A stretch of 64,000 bases of DNA from Turritopsis dohrnii (Eukaryota > Cnidaria > Hydrozoa > Anthoathecata > Oceaniidae), in the NCBI GenBank assembly GCA_027922465.2, contig BQMF02000140.1:496001-560000 (forward strand). Reading direction: 5' to 3'. The notes beneath the pieces are model-generated. The model ran no database searches and was not told where the DNA came from. It saw nothing but the letters and a program-made list of their open reading frames with translations. Below, piece after piece: positions 37,474-57,041 of the stretch. How positions within the stretch are numbered: position 1 is the first letter of the stretch; each line of letters starts with the position of its first letter. The translations under genes and the position numbers were made by a program.

Positions 37474-39470
37474 GTACAGGCACTTGAGCTGTGCTTTCAC
37501 ATTGAAAAAGTTGATTCTTATTTTTGAGTGTCACATTAGGAAATTTATCAGCAAAGAGAACACAAGGTAAATAAAATCCACCACCAGCATTAGGTGAAAA
37601 AGAAAGCCACTTAAAATTGCTTATCTGATCAATGCGGAAACAGTGGCCATTATGTAAGAATCTATGACTTTTACCAGTAATAAAGTGGAAATAGAAGAAA
37701 TGTAGAACTGGATAATTTCCAAATTTTTCAAATAAGGCTAATTCTTCATAATGCTTCTGTCAACAGAGAACTAGGTCGCTGACCTTCCCCAGGGGTAATC
37801 TTAATTTCTTCAATTGCGGAGAAACTATTATACAACATTGTTTCCTGTGTTTTTAATCTGAACAAATCTAGTGGATTTTTATCTTCTTCAAGGTTATCTT
37901 GGTTAACTTGTTCTTCACGCAAATCTTAAGTGGAAATCTCAGACAAATCTAGGAAATCATTAGGAATGTTATCATGATGAATTTTATGTCAAATGGATTG
38001 TGTTCCTGAAAATATTGAAGACCTGAATAAATAGATTCTGGAGAGACAGACGCAAAATAAACATGTCCATAGAAAGCTAACTTTCTTTTCAGTTTTATGA
38101 TAACTAAACGTCAGCTCCACATGGAAATACATTGGTCACAGAAGTATCAAAGGATACATTGCAAATACAACTTTTCAGTTTCAGAAATTGACCTTTCAGC
38201 GTAATTGTAATATAATTGCTTTAATTGAAGAAATAGTATCTTGTATCGCATAAATGGCGATAATTGGATGTTATACTGTGTTTCATTAAAATAGGTTCAA
38301 ACATATCTTTTATAAATGCATTTAGTTCACTTAAAAAATAAATTCAAGTAATGTTGCCATTTGAAGCAGATGAACAGTCAGAATCACCAACTACTTTACT
38401 GTGTAAATCAAATAAATATATATATTGAATGTTTTCAATATCCCAGAGAAGTGCAGAACTGTAACCTGCACAAGTAAAAATAGCACCGGTACCCATATCA
38501 TTGGCTGTGAGATTTTTTTGAGTTTGAAAAAGGTCAATTTCTTCTAAAAAAAGATGATTTACCATACTTAGAAAAGCAACTTGACTAAATGGGGTTCAAT
38601 GAATATACTTTAAAGTCAGAAATTTTTTCGGGAAGAAATTTTCGCGAATTTCGCGAATGGACTCTCAATTCGCGAAATTAAATGCCCGCGAAAAAATCTT
38701 TTTGGGACATTCGCGAAATTAAATTCCCGCAGAAAAAATTATTTTGTGCTGATACGCGAAAATTTTCAAAAATCTTTAAAAATGTTGAAATCTGTTTAAA
38801 AATTGCATTTACAGTTCTTTCGCGCCTAATATTTGCATGCAAGTTCACCATACTGTACCGGAACGTATTTGAAACACAGTACAGTCGCAATCATTATCTT
38901 TTGTAATGTCGAACGTTTTTGTCGGTCCCTTGGGGGTTCGAGATAACGAGCGTCGAAGATTGTAACAAATTAGCTTTCTTTGTTCATAAAAATATCATAA
39001 CAAATACCAAGTGCATACGTCGTAAAAAGAAGAAATAAAATCTAGTCTAACATTTTTTGGTGAAAGATTTTTCACCAATTCACGAAAATTAATTCTCGCA
39101 AAAAAATATTTTTGGCCAATTCGCGAAAATTAATTCCCGCGAAATACAAAAAATTTCGCGAATGAATTTCTGACTTTAAAGTATTACAAGGAATATTTGA
39201 TCAACTGCTACTAGGGGCCCTGCTGTTTGGCTTGCAACAATTAAAGAGTGCATCACCTGATTCAATACATAGTGTAAATCCCAAGATGTCCATAATAATA
39301 CTTTCTTGATAGCACTGTAACATATTGTAAGCCATTTTCGGTACATTGAAAACCTGCTGTTTCACCAAATTTTGGATCATGTATATATAAGTGAAAAGGT
39401 TCTTGAACTACTTTAGAAAAATTTGGTCCTGGGTTACTTTCAATTCCATATATATACTACATTAATTTTA
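37474..39470 (-). pseudogene. Decayed antisense Helentron N-terminal region
   Basis: Read on the minus strand, this matches the N-terminal third of the 43,928-50,185 protein. It contains GIESNPGP (39,424-39,447), then DPKFGETAGFQC, GTGAIFTCAGYSSALL and YLFDLHSK, then weaker DUF6570-like sequence (for example near 38,100-38,160) down to the MITE at 37,470. Stops and shifts are frequent, and another MITE (38,607-39,182) is inserted in the protease domain. No helicase part remains here. Confidence 0.8.
38607..39182. mobile_element. MITE with ACTTTAAAGTCAGAAA ends and CGCGAAATTAA repeats
   Basis: Perfect 16-bp inverted ends are flanked by AT dinucleotides. The interior has repeated (T)TCGCGAAATTAAAT(G/T)CCCGC blocks near both ends in inverted arrangement. 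An AT duplication would fit an ISL2EU-type source, which is inference. It interrupts the decayed Helentron copy. Confidence 0.8.
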
Positions 39471-39480
39471 AAGCAGCTAA

Positions 39481-39857
39481 GGGGCTGTTCATATGTTAAC
39501 CGGGCTGGCTCACTTGAATGAGATGAAATTCACCCAGCGTTTATATGGCTTTTCTCATCCCACTTAACCGGGCTGGAGAATGTTTTTAAATCACGTAGAC
39601 AATAATTCGAATTTCGACGCGTGCGCACTTGTCTAAAATCTATCCCACTAAGCCGGGCTGGTCTGTTCATATGAACAAATTTCATCTCACCTAGGTGAGA
39701 TCCCGGTCAAATGAAATGAGATCTCACTTAAGTGAGCCAGCCCGCTTTTCATATGAACACAATTTATTTTTATAAAGATTTCTTAATAACAGTGAGATCT
39801 CTGCTAAGTGAGCTAGCCCGGTTAACCGGGCCAGCTCACCTCCATATGAACAGCCCC
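39481..39857. mobile_element. 377-bp MITE, GGGGCTGTTCATATG ends, TAA duplication
   Basis: 15-bp perfect inverted ends are followed by subterminal CCGGTTAACCGG-type palindromes and repeated (A/G)GTGAGCCAGCCCG motifs in both orientations. TAA lies on both sides (39,478-39,480 and 39,858-39,860). It has no ORF and sits just upstream of the 2A-like end of the decayed Helentron copy. Confidence 0.85.
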
Positions 39858-39860
39858 TAA

Positions 39861-41163
39861 ATGCAAATTTGAGCAGAATATAGCAACATATATAATAATA
39901 CTATACCAGAAGAAACATAAGGCATGGAATTCAAAATAGAGAGATGATGTAAATAATAATTGAGCAGTGCTGAATTGTGCTGGATAATCTTATTGAGTAA
40001 TTTTAAGTTTACATGAACAAAAATATGAGCAATGAAATGGAACAAAAACGTCATTCAAAGAAAATAACTGTATTATACATCCTACACACATTCACGTCCG
40101 CTTCAAAGAATATGGCAGTGCACATTGATCTGAACGGTAAAACAGGCTAAAAAATGTCCACACAAAACCTTTGCATTCCAAACACCTCGCGTATAACGCG
40201 ATTTGAATGAAGTCCTTCCAAGATTCTATACCCTTACCCTTGATGGAACTTTGGCCATTAATGGTGAGGCGCACAACAGATAGATCCCACATGTTCTGAA
40301 CCCGTTTATGAGTTTTATGGGGGGCCACTGAAAAAGATTTTCCATCTCTTGAATTCATTGTCCACGTCCACATTGTTCACATCTTTTCAACTGAGTAGCT
40401 ATGGGAATTGATGGAATGTATGCAATGTGCACTTTTAAATCTTTGCACAAAACCCTTTACTGCACTGCACAGTCATCAATTCTCTCCATCATTGCGTTCT
40501 TTACATCTCAGCTCACGACACACGCACGGTAAGACCCGCCAGTAAGTAAGGTGCACTGGGTTGGACGGAAAGGTGTTTTAGGGGGTGATATTGCTTAGTG
40601 AAAATCCTCTTGGAGAAATAAATTTTGCACAGTCAATCATCAATCATCTCCTTCAGTTTGTTTCACTATATAGCTTCCTCCCACACACCTCAAAGTACGA
40701 CCCACGCATTAGTAACTTTTATAAACACGCTTGAAAGAGCGAAAAGATGGCTGGGTGAAAGGTGGATATCACTTCGTGGAAACCTAAAAAATCCTAATTG
40801 GTATTTTAAAAATAAACGTGCGCAGCTGTACGAAGTTGTTTAACTCGTGTTGGGATTTGAAGAGCTCAAAGGCAATTTACATTCGGCATTTGTAAAAATG
40901 TAAAGATTTTTTTTTGTAGAGTGAAGTATTGATTACATCTTGATTCAGATATGCGATGTTGCTGTTTTGAAATTTCTAATTATTTGTTGAATGTTGTGGT
41001 CTGGATAATGGTGCTGTTGAATCTTGCCCACAGAGTTGAATCTCGCCTCAACTCATGGTATCGGGATAAATTATTTTTACAGCTTTTAATCAAAACTGCT
41101 GCTCAACATATTGCAAATATCTTTTCATCCAGAAGGCCTGACACACAACCTTATTAGTATCCG
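39861..41163. other. Intergenic; two diverged similar segments at 40,430-40,850
   Basis: No gene is recognised. About 40,460-40,610 and 40,630-40,790 look like an old tandem duplication. Both run from a CAGTCA...ATCA...CTCC stretch through CACACxC, AAG(T)ACGACCC-like and GGTG(G)ATAT motifs to GTGxAAA. The ORF at 40,092-40,373 (minus) has no family signature. Confidence 0.35.
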
Positions 41164-42170: not shown

Positions 42171-42669
42171 ACAAAAAGGAAATTTCTTAAGGAAGACAGA
42201 GAAGATATTAAACATTTGACCAAGACTATACCACATTCACCTGGAAGATAAATGAAATCTTGTACATAAAACGGGAGTACATTATCATAATAAAACACAA
42301 AGCTATAGCCAAGATTGTCATCATTATTTCATTGCCCCCGCAGCGAGCGAGGAGGCATAGTTGTTTCACGAGATAGGGAAAGTCAGTTTTCGATTTTGTT
42401 CATCATCTTCATCTTCCAACATCCATGATGCTTTGCGAGTTTTAAGAATTTAGCAGCGACATTCCGTAATCGAGCACGCCGACAACAACAAGAAGAAGAC
42501 GAAGATAATAAAGGTATTACTTTTTTTTCTAAACTGCTACTTCAGATATGAGCTCTGAACCGTTATCTGAAGGTCCACGAAATGTGGAGGATTTTTGTGT
42601 GTCGCAGATAAGAATAATTGTGAGACTTCGGAAGAAGTAAATTATGAGACTTCAAGTGGTGAAGTAGTA
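42171..42669 (+). other. 5' region of the Helentron, possible upstream exon and frame
   Basis: This region precedes the protease ORF. An ATG at 42,548 opens a short frame (MSSEPLSEGPRNVEDF) that is one base out of register with the long ORF, ending at 42,640. This could be a real N-terminus separated by a frameshift or splice. A pyrimidine-rich CTTCAG at 42,539-42,544 could be an acceptor. The left terminus of the element was not determined. Confidence 0.4.
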
Positions 42670-43722
42670 ATGGAGGTAGCAGCTGATTGTTCAGCAGGTC
42701 GTAAAGAGATTTCCAGATACATTAGCAGGCCACTTCAAAATGCTTTCAGTAGTCAAATACATTTTAGAAATGCTTGCAGACAACAACCATCAAAATATTC
42801 GTGTGCTATCGATTGTTTTCTTGAAATTAGCTATGTTATTTTATATGACCATTTGAAGAATATTTCGAGGACTGAATTCTTTGACTTAGTTTATGAAGCT
42901 TCAAGCTTTTATGAAATGATAATCAGTTCCTCTGAGGATTTTATGATCACCAGTAACTATGATTATGAGTTGAACTTAGCTGGTATTCGCCAACCAGTAT
43001 GGGATTTTTTGGTACAAAATTGCCCGTCATTTGTTAGCCGAGATTGTGAAGCTCAGTTTTCAGAAATCTTTTCCAGCTGTATTTTCAACTTATTAACAGT
43101 TGATGAGAAAACTCTTTTTCAATCAAGATACACTCTAAAGGCATATTGTAGTAGTTGTAACATAGATTTTACTACTAAATTGCCATCTATGGTAAATTTT
43201 ATGTCTGAACTTGATTTAGCAAATCTAGAAAATTTAAATGATTGGCCAAACTTATTGCATCCACTGGCACGTAATAGATTTTTGCAGTGTAGGTGTGAGA
43301 GGCTTTGCGAAGCAGTTATTGAAAATGTTGTTCTTCCAAAAATTTGTTTAATAGAATTTAGTATAAATTCCATTTTTGAGAATGAATTTCAAGAACAAGT
43401 AATGATACAGAACCATTTGTTTTTGCTTACAGGACTAGTACGACATCAGAACCAACATTTTACATGTGCTGTAGTAAATGATTTGGGGAAATGGATTTAT
43501 TTAGATGATATGTCTGATAATGTGTCATATTATTCTAGCTTGAATGAACTTTGCATTATTAAGGAACATGGTTGGTTTTTCTTTATTTATGTAAGAGAAC
43601 ATGATATTGCTGCTTTGTCAAACTTAGATGTCCATTTCAGTATTGATGAGTCTCTAATTCAAATCGCGATACGCGAGGTGTTTGGAATGCAAACCGATCG
43701 TCGTCGTGAAGCCAAAAAATAG
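42670..43722 (+). CDS. USP-like cysteine protease of the Helentron
   Basis: I took the first in-frame ATG (42,670); the open frame extends back to 42,595 without ATG. The Cys-box PSKYSCAIDCFLE and the His-box HFTCAVVNDLGKWIYLDDM fit the ubiquitin-specific protease (C19-like) fold. CSSC and a later C-x-C (CRC) between them may bind zinc as in many such proteases. It probably cleaves ubiquitin-like conjugates or a polyprotein; the substrate is unknown. Related proteases are known beside RepHel genes in animal Helentrons. It is separated by ~200 nt and a frame change from the RepHel ORF. About 350 residues, no internal stops. Confidence 0.75.
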   Translation: MEVAADCSAGRKEISRYISRPLQNAFSSQIHFRNACRQQPSKYSCAIDCFLEISYVILYDHLKNISRTEFFDLVYEASSFYEMIISSSEDFMITSNYDYELNLAGIRQPVWDFLVQNCPSFVSRDCEAQFSEIFSSCIFNLLTVDEKTLFQSRYTLKAYCSSCNIDFTTKLPSMVNFMSELDLANLENLNDWPNLLHPLARNRFLQCRCERLCEAVIENVVLPKICLIEFSINSIFENEFQEQVMIQNHLFLLTGLVRHQNQHFTCAVVNDLGKWIYLDDMSDNVSYYSSLNELCIIKEHGWFFFIYVREHDIAALSNLDVHFSIDESLIQIAIREVFGMQTDRRREAKK

Positions 43723-43927
43723 CCTTTATGCCATTGCACCTACAAATCACAGTCTAAGATATTTACGCACGCATGCGAACCTTCGGCAATCAACTGTTTG
43801 AAAATAAACTGCAGAAAAAGTGCTTCTGAAAAATAGTAAGTTTCTATCGATTTTATCTGTTACCATAATTTATTTTATTAAATTGCTCAGACATTACCCA
43901 GCATTACCCAGCTATACTCAACTTATT

Positions 43928-46900
43928 ATGTTGTTAGTAGACTACTTAGTTAACATTATTTTTTCCTGCTACTCTAATTTACATTTCTCAATATTAAAAC
44001 TGTTATTATTAGTTATGTTTGGTATTGAAAGTAATCCAGGTCCAACCTATTCCAAAGCAGTAAAAGGATCTTTTCATCAGGGGGATCCAAAGTTTGGCGA
44101 TACAGCAGGTTTTCAATGTACTGGTAATTCTTACGTTGCAATATGCTTTAGTGTTATTAAGAAGGTATCTCGATGGAAATCGTGGGATTTAGACTACATT
44201 TTAATTCAAGGTGATGCATTATTTAAATCATTACAAGCAACAGGACCTCTAGCAGTTGATGAAATGCCTTGTAACATATTCCTTGAAAGTCAGGTAGTCC
44301 ATGTTAATTTTCTGAGTACACAAAGTGGTCTTTTTTCAAATGATACAGACCTTTTCCAAAATCACAAAACTCTCTCAACCGATGAAATTGGAACAGGTGC
44401 TATATTTACTTGTGTGGGATATAGTTTTGCTCTAATATGGCATAAGAATTTAGTGTATTTCTTTGATTCGCACAGTAGAATTATTCATGGAACCTACTAT
44501 TCTTCTGACTCAGATGGTACTTCTACATTACTGGAATTTTCTTCATTGCAAAAACTGAATAATTTTATAAGAGATATTTTTGAAGCTATTACTAATCCTG
44601 AAACACAGTATGACATACAATATATTAGTGTTTATGTGTCCCAAGATGCTATTTCTTTAATTACAAAAAGTTTGCGTCGCAAAAGGAGATCAGAAACCCA
44701 AATAATAAATTGTACCAAAACTAATGGCCTAGAAAGTCACAAATTGATGTTACAAAGGCGCAGAGAAAGTTATTCTGAATTTATTGGAAGCTTTGAGCAT
44801 GAAACACTGAAACGCAAACGCAGAGAAAGTTATTCAGAATTTAGTGGAAGCCTTGAACATGAAACACTCAAATGCAAACGCAGAGAAAATCACTCAAAAA
44901 CAGTTGGAAGTCCTCAGCATGCTAAACATTGTAGGCGATGTACAGCATATCGAAAAAGGAAATCATTAACAAATGGTATTACATCTCTACAAAGAATCTC
45001 TAGATTTGCTGAACTGGTCAAGCAAGGACCAATTTGTGTGTGCATTATTTGTAACCGATCACTGTATGCTAGGTCTGTCCGTAAGTTCTGTATAAATAAT
45101 TATCAAAATACCGACTTAGTCATTCACGAAGTCCCAAAAAAAGAAAGAGAAATTTGCCAAACTTGCCATAAATGTTTAAAGAAAGGCCAGATGCCTGCTC
45201 AAGCTGTTTCTAATAAATTGGAAGTACCTTATGTGCCAACTAATCTGAAAAATTTGAACAGACTAGAACGTGTTCTGATATCAAGAAGGATTTTATTCAA
45301 AAAGATAACAATCATGCCCAAAGGAGGCTTTCCAAAATTGAAAGGTTGCATTTGTAATGTACCTATTGATACTAGTGATATCACTGATGTGCTACCACGT
45401 GGTGCTGATAGTAATGGTTTAGTAATAGTAAAATTGAAAAGAAAGTTAGCTTTCCGCGGTCATGTTTATTTTGAGGCTATTTCTCCGGAGTCTATTTTTT
45501 TAGCTCTTAATTATTTAAAAGATCATAACCCATTATATTATGATATTGAATTTTCTTATAACAATATTCCGAGTGATTTGCTAGATTTATCAGAGAGTTC
45601 AACTGAAATTATGCATGACGAGCCACCTAACAACCTAGAAAACCTAGAGGAAGATGAAAATCCATTGGACATGTTTAGGTTAAATACACAAGAAACAATG
45701 TTAATCACTAATTTTCCATCTTCTGAAGAAATAAGTATAGCCCCTGGTGAGGGTCAGCAACCAAATTCTTTGTTGACAGATAATCATTGTGAAGAATTAG
45801 CTTTTCCATATTTATTTCCACAAGGCAAATTTGGATATAATGTTGATCGTGAAGTGAGATTATCACCAACCAAGTATTTCAATCAACGTTTATTAAACTA
45901 CACACAGCGTTTTGCATCCGATTCTGACTATATATTTTATGCATTATCAGTTATACAGCAAAAGCAACTCATAAGTCAAATAAACATTGCTATGAAAAAA
46001 GTTTGTTCAAGTCAGTTGACAGCTGGTATGTTATCCAACAATTTTTCTGAGACTGTAAAATCTATTGTATCAAAGGATAATGGCTATCAGTTCATGAGCA
46101 CTATTAAAGGAACCCCAGCTTACTGGAAAAAATTTCTATTTGAAGTTTTAGCTATGGTGAAACAGCTTGGTTTACCCACTTTTTTCATGACTTTAAGTTG
46201 TGCAGATTTGCGCTGGAATGAGCTTATTTCTATAATAGCTGAGTTGCAATGTGAAAATCTAACTGATGATAACATAAATGATATGGATTTTTTTGAACGT
46301 TGCAGATACTTAAATCTTAATCCTGTTTTACTCGCTAGGCATTTCCAGTACAGAGTAGAAACTTTCTTTCAAACTATATTAGTCAATGGTCCTCTGGGTA
46401 AAGTTCATTATCATGCAATCAGAGTAGAATTTCAAGTAAGGGGTAGTCCACATATTCATTCATTTTTATGGGTTGTTGATGCACCTGTTTTAACTGAGGA
46501 AACTACTGATGAATACATTGCTTTTGTTGATAGTATTGTAAAAGTGAATGTACCAGATATAGTTACTGAAAAACAGCAGTTTGATTTGGTACGTACTTAC
46601 CAAATTCATTCACATTCCAGGTCATGTCGAAAGTATAAGAACCAGGTTTGTCGATATCACTTTGGAAAATTTTTTACTGATCGAACAATTGTTAGTAAGC
46701 CTTTGCCAAAAGAAATGCCTGAAACCCAAAGACAAGTAATATTGCAAGAAAGAGAAGTAATTCTTTCAACTGTGAAAGATTATATAGACTTATACTTGAA
46801 TCCCAAGAAACGAAATATTCTTGATCCATCGAAAGAAAATTTTGAAAGTATTCCAAGTATTTCAGAAATTTTAGAACACTTACAAATATCACAAGTAGAA

Positions 46901-49900
46901 TACTATGAGGCACTAAGCATTTCTAGTGATTCAGACTTCCAAATACATTTGAAACGACCACCCAATTCCTGTTTTGTAAATAATTATTTTGATGAAGGAT
47001 TGCAAGCCTGGAAAGCAAATATAGATATTCAACCTGTTTTCAATCAGTACAAGGCTGTAACCTATATGTGTGCATATTTTTCTAAAGCAGAAGATGAAAC
47101 CTCGCAGGCAATGAGGCAAGCTGCGAAGGAAGCAGTTAATTCTAACAAAACCCATTTTGAGCAAATGAAAGCAATAGCTAAGGCATATACTACAAAACGA
47201 GAATGCTCAATTCAAGAAGCTGTTTATTTACTTATGCCAGAGTTGTGGTTAAGAAAAACATTTCCAGGTGTAGTCTTTGCTAATAATAATCTTCCTGAAA
47301 AACGGTACAGAGTTTGTAGAAGTAAGAAAGAAATAGATGAACTACCTGAAGACAGTAATGACATATTTCAGCACAATATGATTGACCGTTACATTGACAG
47401 ACCTAATTTATCATTCCAAAATGGTAAATACAGAGTCCTTGATAGTATTTGTTTTGCACAATTTCTTTCCCATTACTATATTGCAAAAAGGAAAGTAGTT
47501 GATGAAACTGAAAATGATTATCAACCTGAGATTTTGAATGATGAATTAATGGACTTAAATCATATTGATTGTAGCTATCCCAAAGTAATCCCATTAATGT
47601 CCTCAAAAGAAAAACTTCAGTGTAGAAAAGTTAAAGCAGTTTTACGGTATCATGTACCTAACAGAAATAAATATCCAGAAGAATATGCCCATCACTTGTT
47701 GTTCATGTTTTTTCCATTTCGAAATGAAGATTCATTAAAGTCTGTGAATAATTCCTATGTTGAAAAGCTTCAAGAGTCTGGTGTTATGGATGTAATCAAC
47801 GAAAATAAACAGATTTTTGAACCATTTAGTGAGTTAGTAGATACTTCTTTGCTAAACTTGCATGCTAGTCTCCAAGACAACACAGATGCTTATTTGCAAC
47901 AAGAAAATTTTTCAGTACAGCAGGAATTACTTGATACAGTCAATGAAATAGTAGATGATGATCCCTCTGAGGATGCTGTGGTATTTGATGAACCAGGCAA
48001 TATGTCTATTACAGCTCCAATATTAATATCTGATGATGATTTGAATTACAAGATCAGATCTTTAAATACAGACCAAAGAAAAATTTTTGATGTCATTTAT
48101 AGTTGGGCAAAGAGCAAAGTTAAAAACTTAAACACATTGTCTCCAATTGATATGGTTCCCTTGCATATTTTTTTAACAGGCAATGCTGGATGTGGTAAGT
48201 CTTTCCTTACCGGAATCATCTATCATTCTTTGTCTAAAGTGTTTTCCTATAGAAGTTGTGATGTTGAAAAACCCAAAGTTTTACTTATGGCTCCAACTGG
48301 TGTAGCTGCTATAAATATAGATGCAACTACTATCCATACAGCACTTGGAATTCCAGTTGGCAATTTTGGTAAAAATCTACCTTCATTGAGTGATAAGAAA
48401 AGGTCCTGTTTGCGTGCTAAGTACTCAGATTTGAAAGTTATCATTATTGATGAAATATCAATGGTTTCAAATTATATGCTTCTGCACATTCATATAAGAT
48501 TGTCAGAAATTTTTGGTTGTTCAATTGAAACTCCTTTTGCTGGCTTAACTGTGATTGTTGTGGGAGACTTTTTTCAATTACCTCCTATTGGAGCAAAGCC
48601 TGTTTATGCAGATTACCGAAATACATGGGAAAACTTAGATCATCTTTGGAAGTTATTTAAGATTGCTGAGTTAACACAAGTGATGAGACAACAGGGTAAT
48701 AATATGTTCATTGACTTACTTAACCATGTTCGTACAGCTCAGTTACAACCAGAAGATATTCTTATCTTGAAAAGTCGATTTATATCTTCCGAAACTCAAA
48801 ATTATCCTGAAAATGCAATTCATATTTTTGCAGAAAATGTTCCTGTGACAGATAGAAATTTATCAAGGCTTGAAAGTGTTCTTAAACCCTTGTATCAAAT
48901 ACCTGCAATTGATATTTTGCCGAAAACTGCACCTGCCAAAAAGGTACACGAAATTTTGAATGGAAAGCAGTCTGATACTGGTGGCCTAGCTGGTATTTTG
49001 TATTTGAAAGTAGATGCTCGAGTAATGCTAACAGTTAATATCAGTATTCAGGATAGATTAATTAATGGTCAAATTGGTACTGTAAGACACATTCTTAGTA
49101 AAAATGGAAATGTATCTAAGATCTACATTAAATTTGATGATCCAAGAGCAGGTATAAAACAAATGAATGCCGATCCATTTGCTAGGCAACATTTTGTTGT
49201 TCCAATTGAAAAGGTAGAAGCTTCTATCCCAATAAGAAAAGGTAAAGAGTCATCCTCAGTGATTAAGCGAACTCAATTTCCACTAACATTAAGTTATGCA
49301 TGTACATGTCATAAAGTTCAAGGATTGAGTCTTGACGAGGCTGTTATAAGTTTTGACCTAGTAAAGCAAAGAAGTTTTAATTATGGACAAATGTATGTAG
49401 CTCTTAGCAGGGTAAGATCACTAGAAGGACTGTATCTCATTGGAACTTTTGACCCAAGTGCTATTAAAGCTGATCCTAGAGCATCTGCTGAATATCATCG
49501 TATGCGTAAAGAATGCCCCCTTGTAGTTGCTGATTCACAAAACGAATGCGAAAACAAACTTGTTATCAGTTTATTAAATATTAGATCATTTAGAAAACAT
49601 GTATCAGATGTTTCTTTGTGCCATGATTTAGCATTATCAGATATTTTATGCTTCACAGAAACACAAATGCTACCTCATCAAATTTCACAAAATGAAGATG
49701 AACAGTTTTTAAGTCAGTTTGAAATTCACCATAATGCTTGTAGTGATAAATTTCAAAGTTTAGCTTTTTGCTTTAAAAAAACCATAGATGTTCTGGAGTA
49801 TTATTTTGGGACTGGTACAGCCATTTATACATTTTGTAAGCAATCATTTTCGAATAGACCAATAAAACTATTATTGCTGTATAGGAAGAATTCTACAAAT

Positions 49901-50185
49901 TTAAATTTGTTTTTCACCAATCTGGCAAACCTTTTAGCACTTGAGCAACTTGATATAATTCTAGGGGATTTCAATATTGATGCACTTCATGCTAATGTAG
50001 CTTTGAATCAAATTATGTCTAATTATTCACAACTGGTAGTAAAAGCTACTCACTTGTCTGGGTCATTGTTAGATCATGTGTATGTACATAACAATATACT
50101 GTCATTATTTAGTGTTTCTACTCAGGTATTTTCAATTTATTTTAGTGACCATGATGCTGTAACGTTACAAATCATGCAAAAATAG
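43928..50185 (+). CDS. Helentron polyprotein: 2A-like, protease, HUH Rep, PIF1 helicase, AP-like nuclease
   Basis: Rolling-circle transposase of about 2,085 residues, counted from ATG 43,928; the frame is open from 43,820. The order is a hydrophobic leader ending in 2A-like GIESNPGP (32-39), then a cysteine protease resembling herpesvirus tegument deubiquitinases (Cys64 in FQCTGNS; Asp180-x-His182 in FFDSHSR). Next are three ~20-residue basic repeats (about 277-336) and a DUF6570-like zinc region. The HUH Rep has GSPHIH (842/844) and YMCAYFSK (Tyr1046/1050). The helicase shows GNAGCGKS (1418-1425), IIDEIS (Asp1508), VVGDFFQLPP and YVALSRVR. The C-terminal AP-endonuclease-like domain has FTET (Glu1911), GDFN (Asp2014) and SDHD (2073-2076). 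All recognised catalytic residues are present, and no stop interrupts the frame. Confidence 0.9.
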   Translation: MLLVDYLVNIIFSCYSNLHFSILKLLLLVMFGIESNPGPTYSKAVKGSFHQGDPKFGDTAGFQCTGNSYVAICFSVIKKVSRWKSWDLDYILIQGDALFKSLQATGPLAVDEMPCNIFLESQVVHVNFLSTQSGLFSNDTDLFQNHKTLSTDEIGTGAIFTCVGYSFALIWHKNLVYFFDSHSRIIHGTYYSSDSDGTSTLLEFSSLQKLNNFIRDIFEAITNPETQYDIQYISVYVSQDAISLITKSLRRKRRSETQIINCTKTNGLESHKLMLQRRRESYSEFIGSFEHETLKRKRRESYSEFSGSLEHETLKCKRRENHSKTVGSPQHAKHCRRCTAYRKRKSLTNGITSLQRISRFAELVKQGPICVCIICNRSLYARSVRKFCINNYQNTDLVIHEVPKKEREICQTCHKCLKKGQMPAQAVSNKLEVPYVPTNLKNLNRLERVLISRRILFKKITIMPKGGFPKLKGCICNVPIDTSDITDVLPRGADSNGLVIVKLKRKLAFRGHVYFEAISPESIFLALNYLKDHNPLYYDIEFSYNNIPSDLLDLSESSTEIMHDEPPNNLENLEEDENPLDMFRLNTQETMLITNFPSSEEISIAPGEGQQPNSLLTDNHCEELAFPYLFPQGKFGYNVDREVRLSPTKYFNQRLLNYTQRFASDSDYIFYALSVIQQKQLISQINIAMKKVCSSQLTAGMLSNNFSETVKSIVSKDNGYQFMSTIKGTPAYWKKFLFEVLAMVKQLGLPTFFMTLSCADLRWNELISIIAELQCENLTDDNINDMDFFERCRYLNLNPVLLARHFQYRVETFFQTILVNGPLGKVHYHAIRVEFQVRGSPHIHSFLWVVDAPVLTEETTDEYIAFVDSIVKVNVPDIVTEKQQFDLVRTYQIHSHSRSCRKYKNQVCRYHFGKFFTDRTIVSKPLPKEMPETQRQVILQEREVILSTVKDYIDLYLNPKKRNILDPSKENFESIPSISEILEHLQISQVEYYEALSISSDSDFQIHLKRPPNSCFVNNYFDEGLQAWKANIDIQPVFNQYKAVTYMCAYFSKAEDETSQAMRQAAKEAVNSNKTHFEQMKAIAKAYTTKRECSIQEAVYLLMPELWLRKTFPGVVFANNNLPEKRYRVCRSKKEIDELPEDSNDIFQHNMIDRYIDRPNLSFQNGKYRVLDSICFAQFLSHYYIAKRKVVDETENDYQPEILNDELMDLNHIDCSYPKVIPLMSSKEKLQCRKVKAVLRYHVPNRNKYPEEYAHHLLFMFFPFRNEDSLKSVNNSYVEKLQESGVMDVINENKQIFEPFSELVDTSLLNLHASLQDNTDAYLQQENFSVQQELLDTVNEIVDDDPSEDAVVFDEPGNMSITAPILISDDDLNYKIRSLNTDQRKIFDVIYSWAKSKVKNLNTLSPIDMVPLHIFLTGNAGCGKSFLTGIIYHSLSKVFSYRSCDVEKPKVLLMAPTGVAAINIDATTIHTALGIPVGNFGKNLPSLSDKKRSCLRAKYSDLKVIIIDEISMVSNYMLLHIHIRLSEIFGCSIETPFAGLTVIVVGDFFQLPPIGAKPVYADYRNTWENLDHLWKLFKIAELTQVMRQQGNNMFIDLLNHVRTAQLQPEDILILKSRFISSETQNYPENAIHIFAENVPVTDRNLSRLESVLKPLYQIPAIDILPKTAPAKKVHEILNGKQSDTGGLAGILYLKVDARVMLTVNISIQDRLINGQIGTVRHILSKNGNVSKIYIKFDDPRAGIKQMNADPFARQHFVVPIEKVEASIPIRKGKESSSVIKRTQFPLTLSYACTCHKVQGLSLDEAVISFDLVKQRSFNYGQMYVALSRVRSLEGLYLIGTFDPSAIKADPRASAEYHRMRKECPLVVADSQNECENKLVISLLNIRSFRKHVSDVSLCHDLALSDILCFTETQMLPHQISQNEDEQFLSQFEIHHNACSDKFQSLAFCFKKTIDVLEYYFGTGTAIYTFCKQSFSNRPIKLLLLYRKNSTNLNLFFTNLANLLALEQLDIILGDFNIDALHANVALNQIMSNYSQLVVKATHLSGSLLDHVYVHNNILSLFSVSTQVFSIYFSDHDAVTLQIMQK
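44021..44044 (+). other. 2A-like ribosome-skipping motif GIESNPGP
   Basis: The motif follows a hydrophobic stretch (LLLLVMF) near the N-terminus of the Helentron protein. The canonical core is DxExNPGP; here the Asp is Gly. Hydrophobic signal-like 2A sequences are known at N-termini of some animal LINE and immune-receptor proteins. The identical eight residues occur in the decayed antisense copy (39,424-39,447), so the Gly variant is a family trait. If active, it would release a 38-residue peptide. Confidence 0.65.
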
Positions 50186-51546
50186 ATTATACATATTTGA
50201 ATGAGTTATTGACAGTACTCTTGTTTGTTACCTGTTGTCGAAGTACTTGTTATAATTGTATGGTATTTTGTAAGGCTGGTTTACTCACTTTTACCCTGCC
50301 TTTACTCAACATTTTATACGTTTTTGCTTTACTTGAAACCTTTTATCATGTTTTACCTACTAGCATTTCAATCTAATCAAAGAAAAACAAGAAAAGGCTT
50401 AAAAAAGAATGATCATCGAACATGTTGAAGGTAGCCATCTTTCATCTTCCTTTCTTTCTATTGACAAGGCTTGCATATTATTTAATCCCCATGTTGATGG
50501 TTGCATGCGTTTTTAAGACTTGTTTTGTTTAATTTGTTTTTTTTTAATAGTTTCTTCCAACTGGCGAACAACAGATGTGATCACGCAAATATAAAAGATG
50601 CGTCATTCTTCAGTAATTCATCAAAGAAGATTAACAGAAGAGAAGGAAAAAATGAATAATTTTGGTCAACATCCTATAATGTTGTTGGTTGTTCTGGCGT
50701 GATAGTTGCCGCATTTAACATAAATTTCATTATTAAAATCATCGCGGTGTCGCAGTTTAAATTTGTGGTTCTAATTCAGGTACTTATTAAAGTACTGTCA
50801 ATCACGGTCCGTTTCTTTTTTTGGTCATTATTAATTATAACTTATTTCTAGGATTGATGCACGGTTAACAGCAACGTTCCTACTGAACATATTTCAGACA
50901 TATTTCGAACAATATTTCAGCTTAAAAATCATGTTTCCACGCAGAAGTCAATATTGTTGACGTTGGCATTTCTAAAGTTACGTATGCCGATGAGATTTTA
51001 ACGTCGTTATAATTCCATTTATTGTAGAGATTTGTATTTTTTTCATAGTACTATTTATAGTAGAAATTTGTATTACAGTAGTTTCATAATACTAAATATC
51101 ACCAAAAACCAAGAATTGTTATTGATTTACCATAAGGGAGGAAATTTTTGCGGAAAGAAAATTAGACTAAGAAAATTTGCCAAAAATCTCTGTGTTTGTA
51201 TGTATTTCTTCGATTTCTTTAGCGCTGGCGTACTGCTGACCTCTTGTCTTATTTTCCCCTGGATTGTATTGAAATGATTAGCAACCGTCCAGGTTTTATA
51301 AAAATCAGTTTATACACTGAAACTCTTGCATGAAAGAGGCGAGTGCTTTCCGACTGTATTTAACGATTATTAGAGCGTTTCCGTTTTCGCTCTCCATTTT
51401 ATGACAATTTTATGGATCATATGAAATGGTGTTCAGTAATGGAAATAACGGTCAGTGATCGGGTGAAAACAGACGGGAAAATGAAAAACGGATTAGAAGA
51501 CTTCCAGATTTAAGGATTTAAGGTCTTTTTTAGAATCATAAGAAAA
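50186..51546. other. 3' flank of the Helentron, no gene recognised
   Basis: A+T-rich with short ORFs only, such as the hydrophobic 50,225-50,428. I could not locate a convincing Helentron 3' terminus or hairpin, so the element's right end is undefined. Confidence 0.4.
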
Positions 51547-52183
51547 AAAATTACGTCAACCATTGCCTCGTTTTCAACATTATAAGCATAGTCATTTCTG
51601 ATAGGAAACGATAATTGAGAAACTTCGTTTATTTTGTTACTCTCGTGTGCCAATTAAACGGGGGGGGGGGGGGATCAAAATAAATGGGGTGGGTTGGAAA
51701 ATTTCCAAAAACGTAATAAGCGGGGGGGTCTTATTTTCCGGGGGGGTTGGAAAATGTAAAAGACATCGATTTTCAATGAAATAAGAAGATTTGTGTTCTT
51801 AACGTGTTAATGTTAATAATAACTATATACTATCATACATGGAACTATGTTTTGTATACAAAAAAGTGATAGGGAAACTTTTAAGCAAAATCCTTCCAGT
51901 TTTAAAAAACCTGAAGATTACTACTAGTAACAGTTATATACAAGAAGCTATTTTTTTCTTTTCTCTTTTTCTAAACGATAAAATAAGTATCACATGAAAA
52001 GTCTTTGTTACTGTAATACATAACTTCAGCACAAGAAAATGAGTGTTAAGAAAAGTATAAGAAACTGAGTTACTAGTAAACACAAAAACATCAGTTACAC
52101 ACATGTCTATCGGTGAAAATAAATAAACGAAGGGGTCTAAATAAGGTCCGGGGGGGTTGGAAAAAAATCGAAAAATTAACAAG

Positions 52184-52214
<31 letters not shown>

Positions 52215-52328
52215 CGTTTATTTGGCACACGAGAGTAACAAAATAAACGAAGTTTTTCAATTATCGTTTCCTATCAGAAATGACTATGCTTATAATGTTG
52301 AAAACGAGGCAATGGTTGACGTAATTTT
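51547..52328. mobile_element. Foldback element, 114-bp arms around G-tracts
   Basis: The arms 51,547-51,660 and 52,215-52,328 are inverted copies with about two mismatches. The inner edges begin with runs of G (13 at 51,661; 30 at 52,185-52,214), and further GGGGGGG runs lie inside, including two direct copies of CCGGGGGGGTTGGAAAA. No coding region is evident, and ORFs across the arms are by-products. Arm identity suggests recent origin or ongoing correction. Confidence 0.8.
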
Positions 52329-52741
52329 CGAAAAGTTCTGTTATGCGGTGAATGTACGGAAGCCGAAAAGCACCAAGGTAATATTACACAGTATAATATC
52401 ACATCGTTTGCTCAACGAAATTTAAAAATAAGCACAGAATATAAACTCTTCTCGTGCAGAATTTTATCACACTGATTAGATGTCAAATGAACAGAAGTTT
52501 GCAAATGCTAACATAACTATTGTCAAATTTTGAAAGCCTCTTTAACACTTGTACCACAAAAAAATGTATACTTTTTGTATAACAAAGTTCATTACATTTT
52601 AGACCGTTATGCCAAATGGTGGTCTCATGTCAGTATGGCAATTTAACAAAAAACAGAACAATGAAAGAACAAAAGAAGAAATATATAATAAAATGTTCAA
52701 CTATAATGAAAGACCTTATAATGAAAATACGGTATATAACT

Positions 52742-54126
52742 TCACAGTTTGATTATGGTTATAACTTTCTTATCAACTATGCTGTACTTGATAAAAATCT
52801 GACTTGACAACATATCTTTCACCACTTGAAGAATTTCATCATTCTTGAAAGTTTTCTTTAATTGCTGAAGAGGAGCCAAGACTTCTGTTTTTAAAAGTGT
52901 TTCGCTGTCTCTAACTGTAAATATAACATCTTCAACCTTTTTACAATCATCAACAGCAACCATACTATTGCATGAAGAACAGACAGATACACCTACTTTA
53001 TCATTGTTATCAATTGCAAGTTCTTTGTTACAATTTATGCAGTAAAGTTTACATGTCAGTGAGTCCATGCTCACAGAAACAATCTTTCCAGTAATCTCAT
53101 TGTTTACGACATCATTAAGTGCCAAGTCTTTCACCTCAATTTGACATTCGTCTTCAATAATCTCTGTTAAATGAGTTGTTTTTAACAGCCTTTGGGTCGA
53201 ATATTTTGAAATTCGCATGTTGTTGAACATATATGTTGTATTTTCACGAACACTGTTGATGTGCTCACCAAATATAGTGATAGGAATTTCATCTTCTAAA
53301 TCTTTTATACAGGCCTTCCGCAAGCGTATATTTATTCCATCCTTAATGATCTCTTCAATAGCAGATATTTTATAAATAAAACCTCTGACATTAATGACTT
53401 CAAACAAATGGCATTCGTTATTTATCTCTGCAATAGTTGTATACTTTACTCCAAATTCTTTTCTTGCAAAATCCAACTTAGTAACTTTAATTGATGAATA
53501 ATCACCGATTAATATTTCATCTTTGGGATTGCTACGAAATCCTTTGATTTCACAACCTTCAGAAGATTCACTTAAGTTACTAAGAAGCTTGTGCTTTTCA
53601 GGAGAAAAGCAAATTGCACGTCGTTTTTTCTCTGCAGTTTGTAAACTGAACTCAAAATATTTTCTTTTTTTGTCCTTACTAGGTGATATGGATGACACAT
53701 GACTAACAAATCCACAAGTATATTCTATAATTAAAAAAAGTAAAGAAAGTTAAGTCCAAGTTAAAATCCATCCATTATCTTAATGTAACCTTATATTTTT
53801 GATATGATGCCCCCTATCTCCTTCATAAACACACAGACACAAGTAGCTATTACATTTAATATACATCATCATATGTTAAAGCTAGCTTATTTCTATAAAG
53901 TACAGTGATAACATTATTTTTGCAAGCTTCATCTGTTTGACCTGTGTAATGCTTCGATACATTTTTATGAATTTCCCATATTACTTGGTAAAAATTTTGT
54001 AAGAATTACAAATTTAGGGGAAGTTCTGATGGCTTTTGTTTATTACAACAAAATGTAATCAAAATTCTGTACAATATAAGGACGAATGACAAAATTACCT
54101 TCTTTTCGCTGTTCTTCCGTAGCCAT
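52742..54126 (-). CDS. RPA-like single-strand DNA-binding protein (Helitron-associated), two exons
   Basis: Exon 1 is 54,099-54,126 (MATEEQRKE), with a GT donor at 54,098-54,097. Exon 2 begins at 53,724 after an AG acceptor. Joining them keeps frame and gives 336 residues. The N-terminus (SPSKDKKRKYFEFSLQTAEKK...CFSP) and later regions look like OB folds, and a CINC...CSSC zinc ribbon follows at about residues 235-260. RPA-like proteins accompany many Helitrons and would bind the displaced strand. It is transcribed away from the deleted Helitron gene at 54,831. It has no stops or shifts, in contrast to that partner. The family call is moderate. Confidence 0.75.
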
Positions 54127-54830
54127 GCTTGCACACTTCTTACACGCAGCTGTCAAAATTTAAAGCATGGTACATTCAATAAATATACACTATGGTTTCT
54201 AGCCAATTATATTATCTGAATCTGCTACACTTTGTATGAATGAATACAATATTTAAAAGTCAGTGATTTGTTTAAAATTGTATTTTTTGATATTAGTACT
54301 GGAATTAAAGCAAAGTTGACAATCTGCTTTTCACCACCTTGCCCTTACCGCCCACAGTCCGTGTGTTGGTCGCACGCACGCGGAGGCCGTGTCGTTTCGT
54401 CTTCTTCTTCGTCTCTCTCTCCAGGATAAACTATAGAGAAGTAACGCTTCCTTGTCGCGCTTTTTCCGCTCGCGGCGGGGGTTTATTCTACTTACTGAAT
54501 TGGGAACTAATTTTTTTGTGAATAATTTATTTTCGCGAGAACTACTTTTCCACGAAGTAAAAGTCAAACTGCTGATGATGCATTAGTTTATAATATTGTG
54601 CTTGTCCGTCCGGAGACTACTTATATGAGTTTTAATTGACTTTTTGGTAGAAATTGTTGTATGGAATATACAAGAGTATACTTAAAATGTCTACTCTTGC
54701 ATTTTTTTGCTTGAACCCCGCGATTTGTTAATGCAAAGCATTTCTTGTTGATATTGAAAAGAACAAAAAAGACCTATGTAGTGGCAAATTTGCTGATAAT
54801 ACTTTGAAGGATTACCCTTTACGTAGTAAA
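54127..54830. promoter_or_regulatory. Divergent intergenic region with G+C-rich core
   Basis: The region separates the RPA-like gene (minus) from the Helitron gene (plus). The 54,340-54,490 part is distinctly G+C- and CpG-rich (CGCACGCACGCGGAGGCCG, CGCTCGCGGCGGGGG), unlike its surroundings, so it could act as a two-way promoter. That role is inference; no TATA or initiator was assigned. Confidence 0.4.
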
Positions 54831-57041
54831 ATGAATATGTCGCTTGAAAAACGACAGAATTATGATAGGAAATATTATGAGAAACATCAGAAGAGACGTA
54901 AAATGCAGTCTCATGATAATTTTGAAAAGAATGGAGCTGAACGAAAAAATCAGTTAAAAGAAAATTATCAAAAGAAGGCACTTGAAAGGAAAAAGAAGTC
55001 TAAAGAAAATTATCAAAACAAGGCACTTGAAAGGAAAAGGAAGTTTAAAGAAAATTACCAAAAAAACCGGGAGAAACGAAAGGAGAAGTTCAAGGAATAT
55101 TATGAGATGAAAAAAGAAGTGATTAAGTCTAGACGTCGTCAACGTTATCAGTCTAAAAAGAAAGGCCAACGGAACAACGGTAATGAAAATGTAGCTCAAT
55201 TTCTAAATGCACAAAGTGAAACACTGAACAAAAAATTCCATAAGAGCCTAGAAATGACTATAATTCAATGCAATACTTGCGCAGAAGCTTGGCCTTTGCC
55301 AAGTTTATCCAAAAAGTTAATTGACACTAAGTATGAATGTATACGGTGTAAGAAAGAAAAAACTTTACCAAAGAAATTTAGTCGAGAAAATAATATGGTT
55401 CCTAGCCCAGTCCCACTTCAGCTTAAAGGTCTGACTCAGGTTGAAGAAATGCTTATTGCTCGAGCGTTTCCTGTCATTCAAGTGTATACAAAGCCTAATG
55501 GTGGACAGAAAGCATTATAAAGGACATGTTATTACTCTTCCTCAAGATGTACAGCATGTAGCTAATATTTTGCCAAGATATCCAAGTGATATTCCTATAA
55601 TTGTGTTTAAATTTGAAGGTAAAGATAATAATTCTAAAGAGCTAAAGGTACGGAGACAAAAAGTACTTGATGCTTTATTGTGGCTCACTGGTAAAAATGA
55701 GAATGGTGAACCTAATAACTTTTTATATAAAGATGTGATTATTGATATGAATAGATTTGATTGTTTACCAGAAAATGATTTCCTTGATTTACCAATGAAT
55801 GTTGATTTTCTTGATAAGAACAATGATTTTGATGATGAGAATGAGGCAGAAATTCCAGATTTTGGATCAGAAAATGACGAGGATGAAAAAGTATATGATG
55901 AAAATTCAGAGATGGGAAGTTTTATTCCTACGAAAGTTAAATCTAAGGTTGAAAAAGAAATTCTTAATGATTCTGTATTGAAACCAGAAACTTGGAGAGT
56001 AGATAGTGTTGCTCTGAATGAATTCAGAACAGAATATATAGCTGGTATGGCTTTTCCTACATTATTTCCTGATGGGAAAGGAGATTCCACTAATATGAGC
56101 ACTGTTAGAGCTATAGCAAAAAGTGATACTGAAGCTTTTTCTGAAAAGATAAAACATTTGATAAAGTTTGCAGAAAGAATTGATGGTAAATGGGTTTATA
56201 GATTTGCAGCCCATCCAAGATTTGCCTTTTGGGCTTATAATATGCTTTATCGTAGACGTTTGCTTGGACAGGGTAGTTTTTATTTGAAACGAAACCCTGG
56301 TGATGCTAATTTAACTATTGATGAGCTACAAGATATGGTAAGAAACGGAAGTCATGCAGTTTTAGTTAAGAAATTAATGCGCTATGCTAGAAATGTGACA
56401 GGTACAAATGCATATTGGAGTAATGCTATAGACAACCATGAAGCGTTAATGAGTCTTGGTGTACCTGTGGCACAGATAAATGCAAGGCGCAATAATAAAA
56501 CAGCAGCAAAATTGCCTTCTGATGATATGGGTGGACTTGAAAATAAGGTATTTTTAGCTAAAGGATGCCATGTAATGTTGACAAGAAATTTATGGACCAG
56601 CAGGGGGCTATGTAATGGTTCTATGGGTGTATTTCAAGAGGGTGATGCACCTCCTAATTTACCTATTGCAGTGATAGTGAAATTTGATTGTTATTCTGGA
56701 CCAAGTATAAAGATGAGCTCTGTTGTGTTCCTATTATCCCTGTTACGAGCATATCTGATTTACATGGTTCAACTTGTGAGAGACAACAACTACCACTTAG
56801 ACTATCAATCCATAAATCTCAAGGACTTACTTTAGATAAAGCTTGGATTGATTTAGGTAATACAGAAAAATTTATTGGTTTGGCGTATGTGGCCATCTCT
56901 AGAGTAAGAAAACTGGAAGATTTGATTATTGAACCAATGACATTGGAGAGGTTGCAGGATATAAAGAAGAAGAAAAATTATCAGTATCGAATTGCTGAAG
57001 AAGAAAGATTGGAACAGTCAGCTTTCAAAACAATTTCATAG
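54831..57041 (+). pseudogene. Internally deleted Helitron RepHel gene
   Basis: The ATG at 54,831 opens a Lys/Glu-rich repeat region ([19 protein letters not shown] units), then Cys pairs CNTC and CIRC and a DUF6570-like stretch. An extra T at 55,515-55,516 shifts frame, after which PQDVQHVANILPRYPSDIP continues. The Helitron_like_N start (RNVTGTNAYWSNA) runs straight, near 56,425, into the PIF1 C-terminal region (HEALMSLGVPVAQINAR, GCHVMLTRNLW). The HUH motif, Walker A and Walker B are therefore deleted. A second shift near 56,706 precedes the final helicase motifs (IHKSQGLTLDKA, AYVAISRVR). It is non-autonomous and distinct from the Helentron family. Confidence 0.85.

Follow-up and report, generated by a model that had tools for sequence, protein, structure and literature searches.

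A predicted 2A (StopGo) peptide with glycine at its first core position heads the polyprotein of a Turritopsis dohrnii Helentron

The Helentron and its polyprotein

The 64,000-nucleotide (nt) stretch of the Turritopsis dohrnii genome analysed here (assembly GCA_027922465.2, contig BQMF02000140.1, positions 496,001 to 560,000 of the forward strand; hereafter the window, whose numbering is used throughout) contains a complete Helentron, a type of rolling-circle DNA transposon. Its 2085-amino-acid (aa) open reading frame (ORF) starts with MLLVDYLVNIIFSCYSNLHFSILKLLLLVMFGIESNPGP and opens with a hydrophobic leader ending in the octapeptide GIESNPGP, where the original prediction had placed it. This octapeptide resembles the core of the 2A (StopGo) peptides, with Gly at position 12, the first residue of the core. 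The features of the element and its protein are:

43660 to 54747 (ends accurate to within 2 nt), + strand: complete Helentron, 11.09 kb, delimited by the empty site L080
43928 to 50185, + strand: ORF of 2085 aa with leader, 2A core, VTD, DUF6570, Helitron_like_N, PIF1 helicase and C-terminal endonuclease-like domain
43928 to 44020, + strand: hydrophobic leader of 31 residues, ending LKLLLLVMF
44021 to 44044, + strand: 2A-type core GIESNPGP, Gly at position 12
44039 to 44041 and 44042 to 44044, + strand: Gly and Pro codons flanking the predicted skip site
44069 to 44476, + strand: VTD (Herpes_teg_N) deubiquitinase-like domain (Pfam E 2.1e-6, above cut-off)
45182 to 45568, + strand: DUF6570 domain (Pfam E 1.5e-15)
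45875 to 46462, + strand: Helitron_like_N (Rep) domain (Pfam E 2.3e-32)
48062 to 48736, + strand: PIF1 helicase domain (Pfam E 5.9e-28)
49631 to 50152, + strand: AP-type endonuclease-like C-terminal domain (Exo_endo_phos E 5.9e-4; 20.1 bits, under the cut-off of 24.5)

Rep and the PIF1 helicase are joined in one ORF, as for Helentrons. The sister loci L009, L010, L060, L061 and L062 carry in-frame stops shortly upstream of the same ATG (L numbers denote loci of this genome, P numbers database proteins). The Herpes_teg_N domain occupies residues 48 to 183 and begins nine residues past the 2A core, so that the original prediction of a 2A-type core directly ahead of a viral-like, herpesvirus-tegument-like protease holds for this Helentron. 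The catalytic residues Cys64 (44117 to 44119) and Asp180-x-His182 (44465 to 44473) are conserved, and both the Cys and the DSH (Asp-x-His) align with PDB entry 8add (E 1e-8). The matching chain of 8add, named 'ATP-dependent DNA helicase', is presumably the zebrafish Helitron VTD of PMC9741609. Homology and catalytic residues assign the domain to the VTD deubiquitinases, with putative enzyme activity. A search of the database with the full-length protein returned two proteins, neither with NPGP, and a search of viral contigs with the whole protein returned one stretch fitting a pattern and no relative.

2A cores in the window and in the genome

NPGP occurs only twice in the six frames of the window, in the Helentron core and in an antisense copy with the same eight residues (YGIESNPGP, 39424 to 39447, stops nearby), and the original prediction of an identical core in a broken frame was therefore accurate. 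The two cores differ at three nucleotides, all synonymous. No match to [DGCN][VI]ExNPGP was found in 25.6 Mb of simulated (Markov-1) sequence, while the pattern (Asp/Glu/Gly)(V/I)ExNPGP gave at least 734 matches in the 436-Mb genome and none in the reversed control, which excludes a chance origin of the core. With any residue allowed at position 12, [VI]ExNPGP was matched at least 767 times (682 with Asp or Glu, 52 with Gly and 33 with other residues) against two in the reversed control, making this genome a rich source of 2A-headed elements; these counts are lower bounds, as the census patterns leave out the Val codon GTG. Among the matches listed for the 734-site pattern, the non-Gly sites are all encoded by GAT or GAC.

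The ORFs at 31 of these cores were scanned, drawn from 28 of the 30 loci L029 to L058 (the broken Gly copies L056 and L057 being left out) and from L066, L069 and L070. Exo_endo_phos domains were found in 15, PHD fingers in 12 and Herpes_teg_N in five. Predicted 2A-headed mobile elements are common in this genome, and in the scanned sample approximately one ORF in two resembles those of non-LTR (long terminal repeat) retrotransposons. Two loci, L069 and L070 (C409:99778-100578 and C697:116295-117095), encode an RNase H-like end (...AIPDHLSRN and ...AIPDYLSRN) after which come, in the same frame, GGIEQNPGP and then a protein containing a hydrophobic stretch, env-like by eye. A Pfam scan of these two loci returned no family; with domain names that are our own, the arrangement would be pol-2A-env, as part of an LTR or retrovirus-like element.

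Position of the 2A core across the family

A protein search of the genome found 23 loci, scoring having been confined to the best 23 of 3,648 candidates; C41 among them was not fetched. In all 20 of the 5' regions fetched for these best-scoring copies, NPGP lies directly before the VTD, 18 times with Asp and twice with Gly at position 12, and a 21st genome locus (C65, L059) also has Gly. Among 32 database proteins with the Pfam domain PF04843, NPGP is present in 21, comprising 16 with Asp, four with Gly (P0019, P0030, P0056 and P0068) and one with Asn (P0113), and in 20 of these 21 it directly precedes the VTD, the exception being P0030. Several of the records lacking NPGP have the domain at their very start. 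Members of the family usually carry NPGP immediately ahead of the VTD, its commonest form being G-D-[VI]-E-x-NPGP. The comparison of related Helentrons for Gly and Asp cores that the original prediction proposed shows the Gly form to be present in other members, with Asp the commoner.

A start module, MI(S/T)(L/I)EAYRA(R/K)IG, stands before the leader in 17 of the 32 VTD proteins (e.g. P0003, P0005, P0013, P0017 and P0068) and in the L012 type. The branch of the window Helentron is without it, though the Gly protein P0068 has it. When exact 20-residue words, taken every 20 residues, were searched in 80 loci of this genome, none from P0056 or P0068 was found; one of 60 was found for P0013 and two of 55 for P0014.

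The Gly form marks one clade

A maximum-likelihood tree of the VTD domain only, without leader and core, was built from 44 rows and midpoint-rooted. The near-duplicate copies L015, L017, L018 and L020 to L027, the proteins P0002, P0004, P0023, P0025, P0030, P0032 and P0112 and the broken or double loci L062 to L065, L068 and L072 to L077 are left out of this tree. All ten window-type Gly rows, P0056 and P0068 included, fall in one group (98/92), and in a smaller tree its three Gly rows group likewise (97/95). The Gly form marks one clade, which bears out the lineage-wide variant that had been predicted, and the tree needs two changes between Asp and Gly, the second in P0019. Asp holds in 26 of the 44 rows and, P0019 and the Asn-bearing P0113 apart, in every other motif-keeping group; Gly at position 12 is accordingly read as derived within the family, the root being taken as the midpoint.

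The genome census gave 52 Gly cores, 48 of which were assigned to this Helentron clade (seven of the window type, 12 GVE, 28 GIE and L071). Context was read for 28 of the 52, namely the two in the window, L009, L010, L056, L057 and 22 in L059 to L078, while the other 24 were assigned by 23-mer only; the context-read sites include 24 of the 48 clade cores and four others, which belong to other families. Outside this genome, a search of viral contigs for [FY]G[VI]ExNPGP gave one match, inside a 20-residue frame only.

Seven pairs of GVESNPGP and GIESNPGP cores, on the same strand and 422 to 428 bases apart, were also observed (in L064, L065 and five further contigs). The paired cores of L064 and L065 are in different frames, in a compound non-autonomous element with two leader segments.

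Probable origin of the Gly form by loss of one codon

The spacing of the core was measured in residues from a leader anchor, [LFMVIR][KR]. The anchor is present in 19 of the 26 Asp rows, and in each of these 19 the core lies eight residues away (four have a second anchor as well, at five). In the Gly clade the spacing is seven in eight of ten rows, which represent three lineages (the window type, the L010 type and P0068), seven or eight in L071, while P0056 lacks the anchor. All 26 Asp rows carry Gly at position 11; in the Gly clade this position is never Gly, being Phe in five, His in three and Tyr in two of the ten rows, which span five lineages. The shorter spacing, together with the loss of Gly11, points to loss of the Asp12 codon, by which the old Gly11 would have slid to position 12. 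The family form G-D-[VI]-E-x-NPGP would thereby have been shortened by one codon, likeliest that of Asp12, and the shift in register would be matched by the aromatic residue or His at position 11. Loss of the Asp12 codon is the best explanation of the Gly form, the exact codon being an inference. A fresh example of such a change occurs in an unrelated family, where L066 has a 3-nt deletion relative to L029 and SGDIETNPGP has thereby become SGVETNPGP; the identity of the two loci is 98.6% over 144 nt downstream and 80% over 147 nt upstream (ungapped).

Gly12 could instead have arisen by a point change in the Asp codon (GAT to GGT), combined with a separate one-residue deletion elsewhere in the leader. 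Likely point changes do occur elsewhere, in P0019 (LLVIG-GIEQNPGP) and in L067, where TCAGGG is kept before GGT. Both of these, however, retain Gly at position 11, whereas none of the ten rows of the window clade does so and those with a clear anchor are one residue short. Furthermore, the Asp relatives P0014 and P0067 read H-G-D where the Gly rows P0068, P0056 and L071 read H-G, and a point change is thus considered a distinctly unlikely origin for this clade.

Constraint on the core

Between the window copy and L010, the core codons have three synonymous differences and one non-synonymous difference (dN, the non-synonymous rate, 0.06; dS, the synonymous rate, 0.87), and the corresponding counts are three and one for the window copy and L071 and five and two for L010 and L071. 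All the amino acid changes are I/V exchanges or lie at the free position 15. In the same pairs, dN is 0.19 to 0.29 in the VTD (dS 0.9 to 1.9) and 0.42 to 0.72 in the leader. The core is kept at the amino acid level and free at third codon positions in these three divergent Gly copies, and the Asp families give a similar picture in the same comparison.

The original prediction pointed to the shared retention of the core in the decayed antisense copy, in diverged surroundings. This copy is represented by the following features:

39424 to 39447, - strand: GIESNPGP core of the broken antisense copy
37734 to 39459, - strand: broken copy of a related Helentron (N-terminal part), interrupted by an insertion; the 5' block of this copy is at 40170 to 40208

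Compared with the window Helentron, it consists of blocks of 70 to 71% nucleotide identity and one of 95%. Over approximately 240 ungapped nt it is 97 to 98% identical to the broken copies L057, L064, L065 and L076, 93 to 94% to L074 and L077 and 78 to 84% to L056, L072, L073 and L075; its identity near the core is 90% with L010 and 75% with the window copy. By these identities, the antisense copy is a recent member of an already broken and amplified defective family. Its intact core would accordingly reflect recency and not retention through long decay, and its use as proof of selection was rejected. Constraint is better supported by the divergent Gly copies, whose frames are open over the compared stretch, than by this broken copy.

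Within the leader of the broken Helentron copy, at 39480 to 39860, a short inserted element was recognised by eye; it has the inverted ends GGGGCTGTTCATATG and has probably duplicated TAA.

Predicted ribosome skipping and fate of the leader

GIESNPGP fits the widened 2A/StopGo core (D/G/C/N)(V/I)ExNPGP of PMC12846837, and skipping is predicted. Gly at the first core position, which had been thought unusual, is common among viral 2As, with 1,207 Gly against 908 Asp octapeptides (PMC12846837), and skipping by a GxExNPGP peptide has been demonstrated for duck hepatitis A virus 1 (PMC6249498). Gly12 is therefore compatible with activity, and its novelty in itself was rejected. It is considered probable that the Helentron polyprotein carries an N-terminal 2A peptide by which the leader is released, and that the Gly12 of this peptide was derived by codon loss. 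The bond between Gly38 and Pro39 would be skipped as the ribosome completes the leader and core, freeing a hydrophobic leader of 38 residues, while the VTD-Rep-helicase-endonuclease protein would be made separately, starting at Pro39. Unskipped molecules would retain the leader and may be sent into the secretory pathway or to membranes, a fate known from the sea-urchin NLR proteins.

Several observations weigh against this proposal. The hexapeptide LLLVMF ahead of the core is L-rich but, going by the text description of the six viral motif classes, has no exact counterpart among them; in viruses the L-rich class with Gly12 ends in (A/G/S)G, and Ser15 there goes with Asp12 (PMC12846837), so that viral activity is not directly transferable. 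Hydropathy, by which alone membrane propensity was judged (best 17-residue stretch within the last 45 residues), is 1.5 in the window leader versus 2.0 to 2.6 in the other leaders measured, its near-copy L009 apart, which makes membrane targeting least certain for this leader. NPGP is missing in 11 of the 32 VTD proteins, including P0009, the sister of the Gly clade, indicating that the peptide can be lost. The substitution counts for the core rest on eight codons and are small numbers, and in the midpoint-rooted tree 15 of 41 inner branches are weak, several rows are on long branches and the Gly row L078 is only 39% filled.

The Gly clade may alternatively have lost skipping, the core being a leftover of an Asp-type 2A and the leader a hydrophobic anchor or idle. 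The sister row P0009 without NPGP would agree with this, as would the presence of dead Gly copies, L061 and L062 having Phe in place of the catalytic Cys. In the 2A complex of foot-and-mouth disease virus, moreover, Asp12 contacts ribosomal RNA and alanine at this position abolishes activity (PMC12846837). A leftover is nevertheless quite improbable, given that viral Gly-type 2As are active, that the core residues are fixed in three Gly copies despite heavy silent change, and also in P0056 and P0068, and that all ten clade rows carry F, Y or H at position 11.

The leader may also be a signal or anchor by design, with a membrane-bound transposase as the main product and the 2A merely tuning the ratio, which is regarded as rather unlikely. 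A hydrophobic stretch does precede the core in the copies measured. A DNA transposase, however, needs to reach the nucleus, and the window leader has the weakest hydropathy of those measured. In sea-urchin NLR proteins an unskipped 2A serves as a signal sequence (PMC4981915) and some proteins translocated into the endoplasmic reticulum lower skipping (PMC2978324), as this alternative would have it; yet the wild-type sea-urchin leader is skipped at approximately 80% (PMC4981915).

In this transposon lineage, an Asp12-type peptide may have been converted into an active Gly12 peptide by the loss of one codon, with the aromatic residue or His at position 11 standing in for the missing Asp side chain. 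This series is put forward tentatively, at slightly less than even chances. If true, it would be natural material for studying the reading of two 2A registers by the exit tunnel. The occurrence of Asp and Gly types in homologous leaders of one family and one genome makes the register question directly testable, and an offset of the same one residue distinguishes viral motif classes 1 and 4 (PMC12846837).

Relation to known 2A users and Helentrons

The viral Gly12 StopGo peptides, of duck hepatitis A virus 1 (PMC6249498) and of classes 1, 3 and 5 (PMC12846837), share the GxExNPGP core with the Helentron; they differ in being sites of viral polyproteins with other upstream motifs and in having measured activity, that of the Helentron peptide being predicted. 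The sections of PMC12846837 examined trace no descent between the Asp-type and Gly-type motifs, and the paper contains no word starting with 'transpos' or 'helitron' and names non-LTR retrotransposons once. The '2A-like' signal of the sea-urchin NLR proteins (Roulston 2016, PMC4981915) is likewise an N-terminal hydrophobic leader with a 2A core before a long protein, and serves both as 2A and as signal, with approximately 80% skipped and a P-to-A form in the Golgi. Its core is D(V/I)ExNPGP and it heads host NLR proteins, in contrast to the transposase polyprotein and Gly12 of the window. Non-LTR retrotransposons are already known users of 2A (PMC4981915). These too are mobile elements with a 2A core near the start of an ORF, and differ in being presumably reverse-transcribing, in their mostly Asp-type core and in having no VTD.

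The zebrafish VTD Helentrons DrT1 and DrT2, as described in PMC9741609, have the same order of a tegument-like deubiquitinase before Rep, helicase and endonuclease, the last being an endonuclease-like domain under the Pfam cut-off in the window Helentron; by comparison with that description, the window Helentron has its VTD preceded by a leader and NPGP. A word search of the main text of PMC9741609 gave no 'ribosom', 'skipping' or 'signal peptide', and in its Fig. 1b some proteins are shown with transmembrane regions. The original prediction held a 2A in a rolling-circle transposon to be undescribed, and no paper on 2A in Helitrons was found in the literature searched; that claim stands for this literature only, as the survey of Rao 2025 (Cell Rep.) lies outside it. 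Helentrons and 2A peptides are each known already; their joint occurrence, a Gly form specific to one lineage and the proposed origin of this form in the loss of a single codon appear to be new. Were skipping to take place as predicted, rolling-circle DNA transposons would join the users of 2A, and 2A would be linked to the VTD deubiquitinase Helentrons.

Boundaries of the Helentron and the interrupted host element

The Helentron sits at a TT dinucleotide within another Helitron-like element, an uninterrupted empty site of which (L080) is present elsewhere in the genome. The window matches L080 at 42468 to 43659 (97.9%) and at 54748 to 56073 (97.4%), in adjoining blocks with TT in common; as L080 is the same flanking element without the Helentron, an 11.09-kb insertion at TT is indicated. 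Homology to other Helentron copies begins at the 5' end at 43644 to 43658. TT occurs at both ends of the Helentron and once in the empty site, such that a 2-nt target duplication is indistinguishable from the element's own terminal Ts. A TT dinucleotide preference of Helentron insertion is stated in PMC4067079. The terminal features are:

43660 to 43668, + strand: 5' subterminal inverted repeat CAAATCGCG, continuing into CGCG-ATA-CGCG
54719 to 54727, + strand: 3' subterminal inverted repeat CGCGATTTG
54730 to 54742, + strand: 3' terminal hairpin AATGC-AAA-GCATT (5 bp)

Subterminal inverted repeats and a 3' palindrome are described for Helentrons in PMC4067079, and both are present here as the 9-nt pair CAAATCGCG/CGCGATTTG and the 5-bp palindrome near the 3' end. 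The repeats of the window element are shorter than those of mite Helentrons, which are 12 to 15 bp (PMC4067079).

The ORF at 42670 to 43722, immediately upstream, was considered as a partner gene of the Helentron and rejected, being the 5' part of the interrupted Helitron-like element. None of the 27 other loci tested, which represent 20 distinct Helentron places, contains it. In the genome it matches 118 stretches, its own among them, and the closest of these end at residue 329 to 333 of the ORF. The DUF6570 ORFs of the interrupted element restart at 54831. No match to the upstream ORF was found in Pfam or among solved structures (PDB). The interrupted element as a whole (42468 to 43659 and 54748 to 56835) encodes an N-terminal Cys-rich part (NACRQQPSKYSCAIDCFLE...), which is in a single frame with the DUF6570 part in L080. 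Inside the Helentron, a Pfam scan of a 162-aa antisense ORF (52742 to 53230, - strand) gave no convincing family; it contains paired Cys motifs and may code for a diverged accessory protein.

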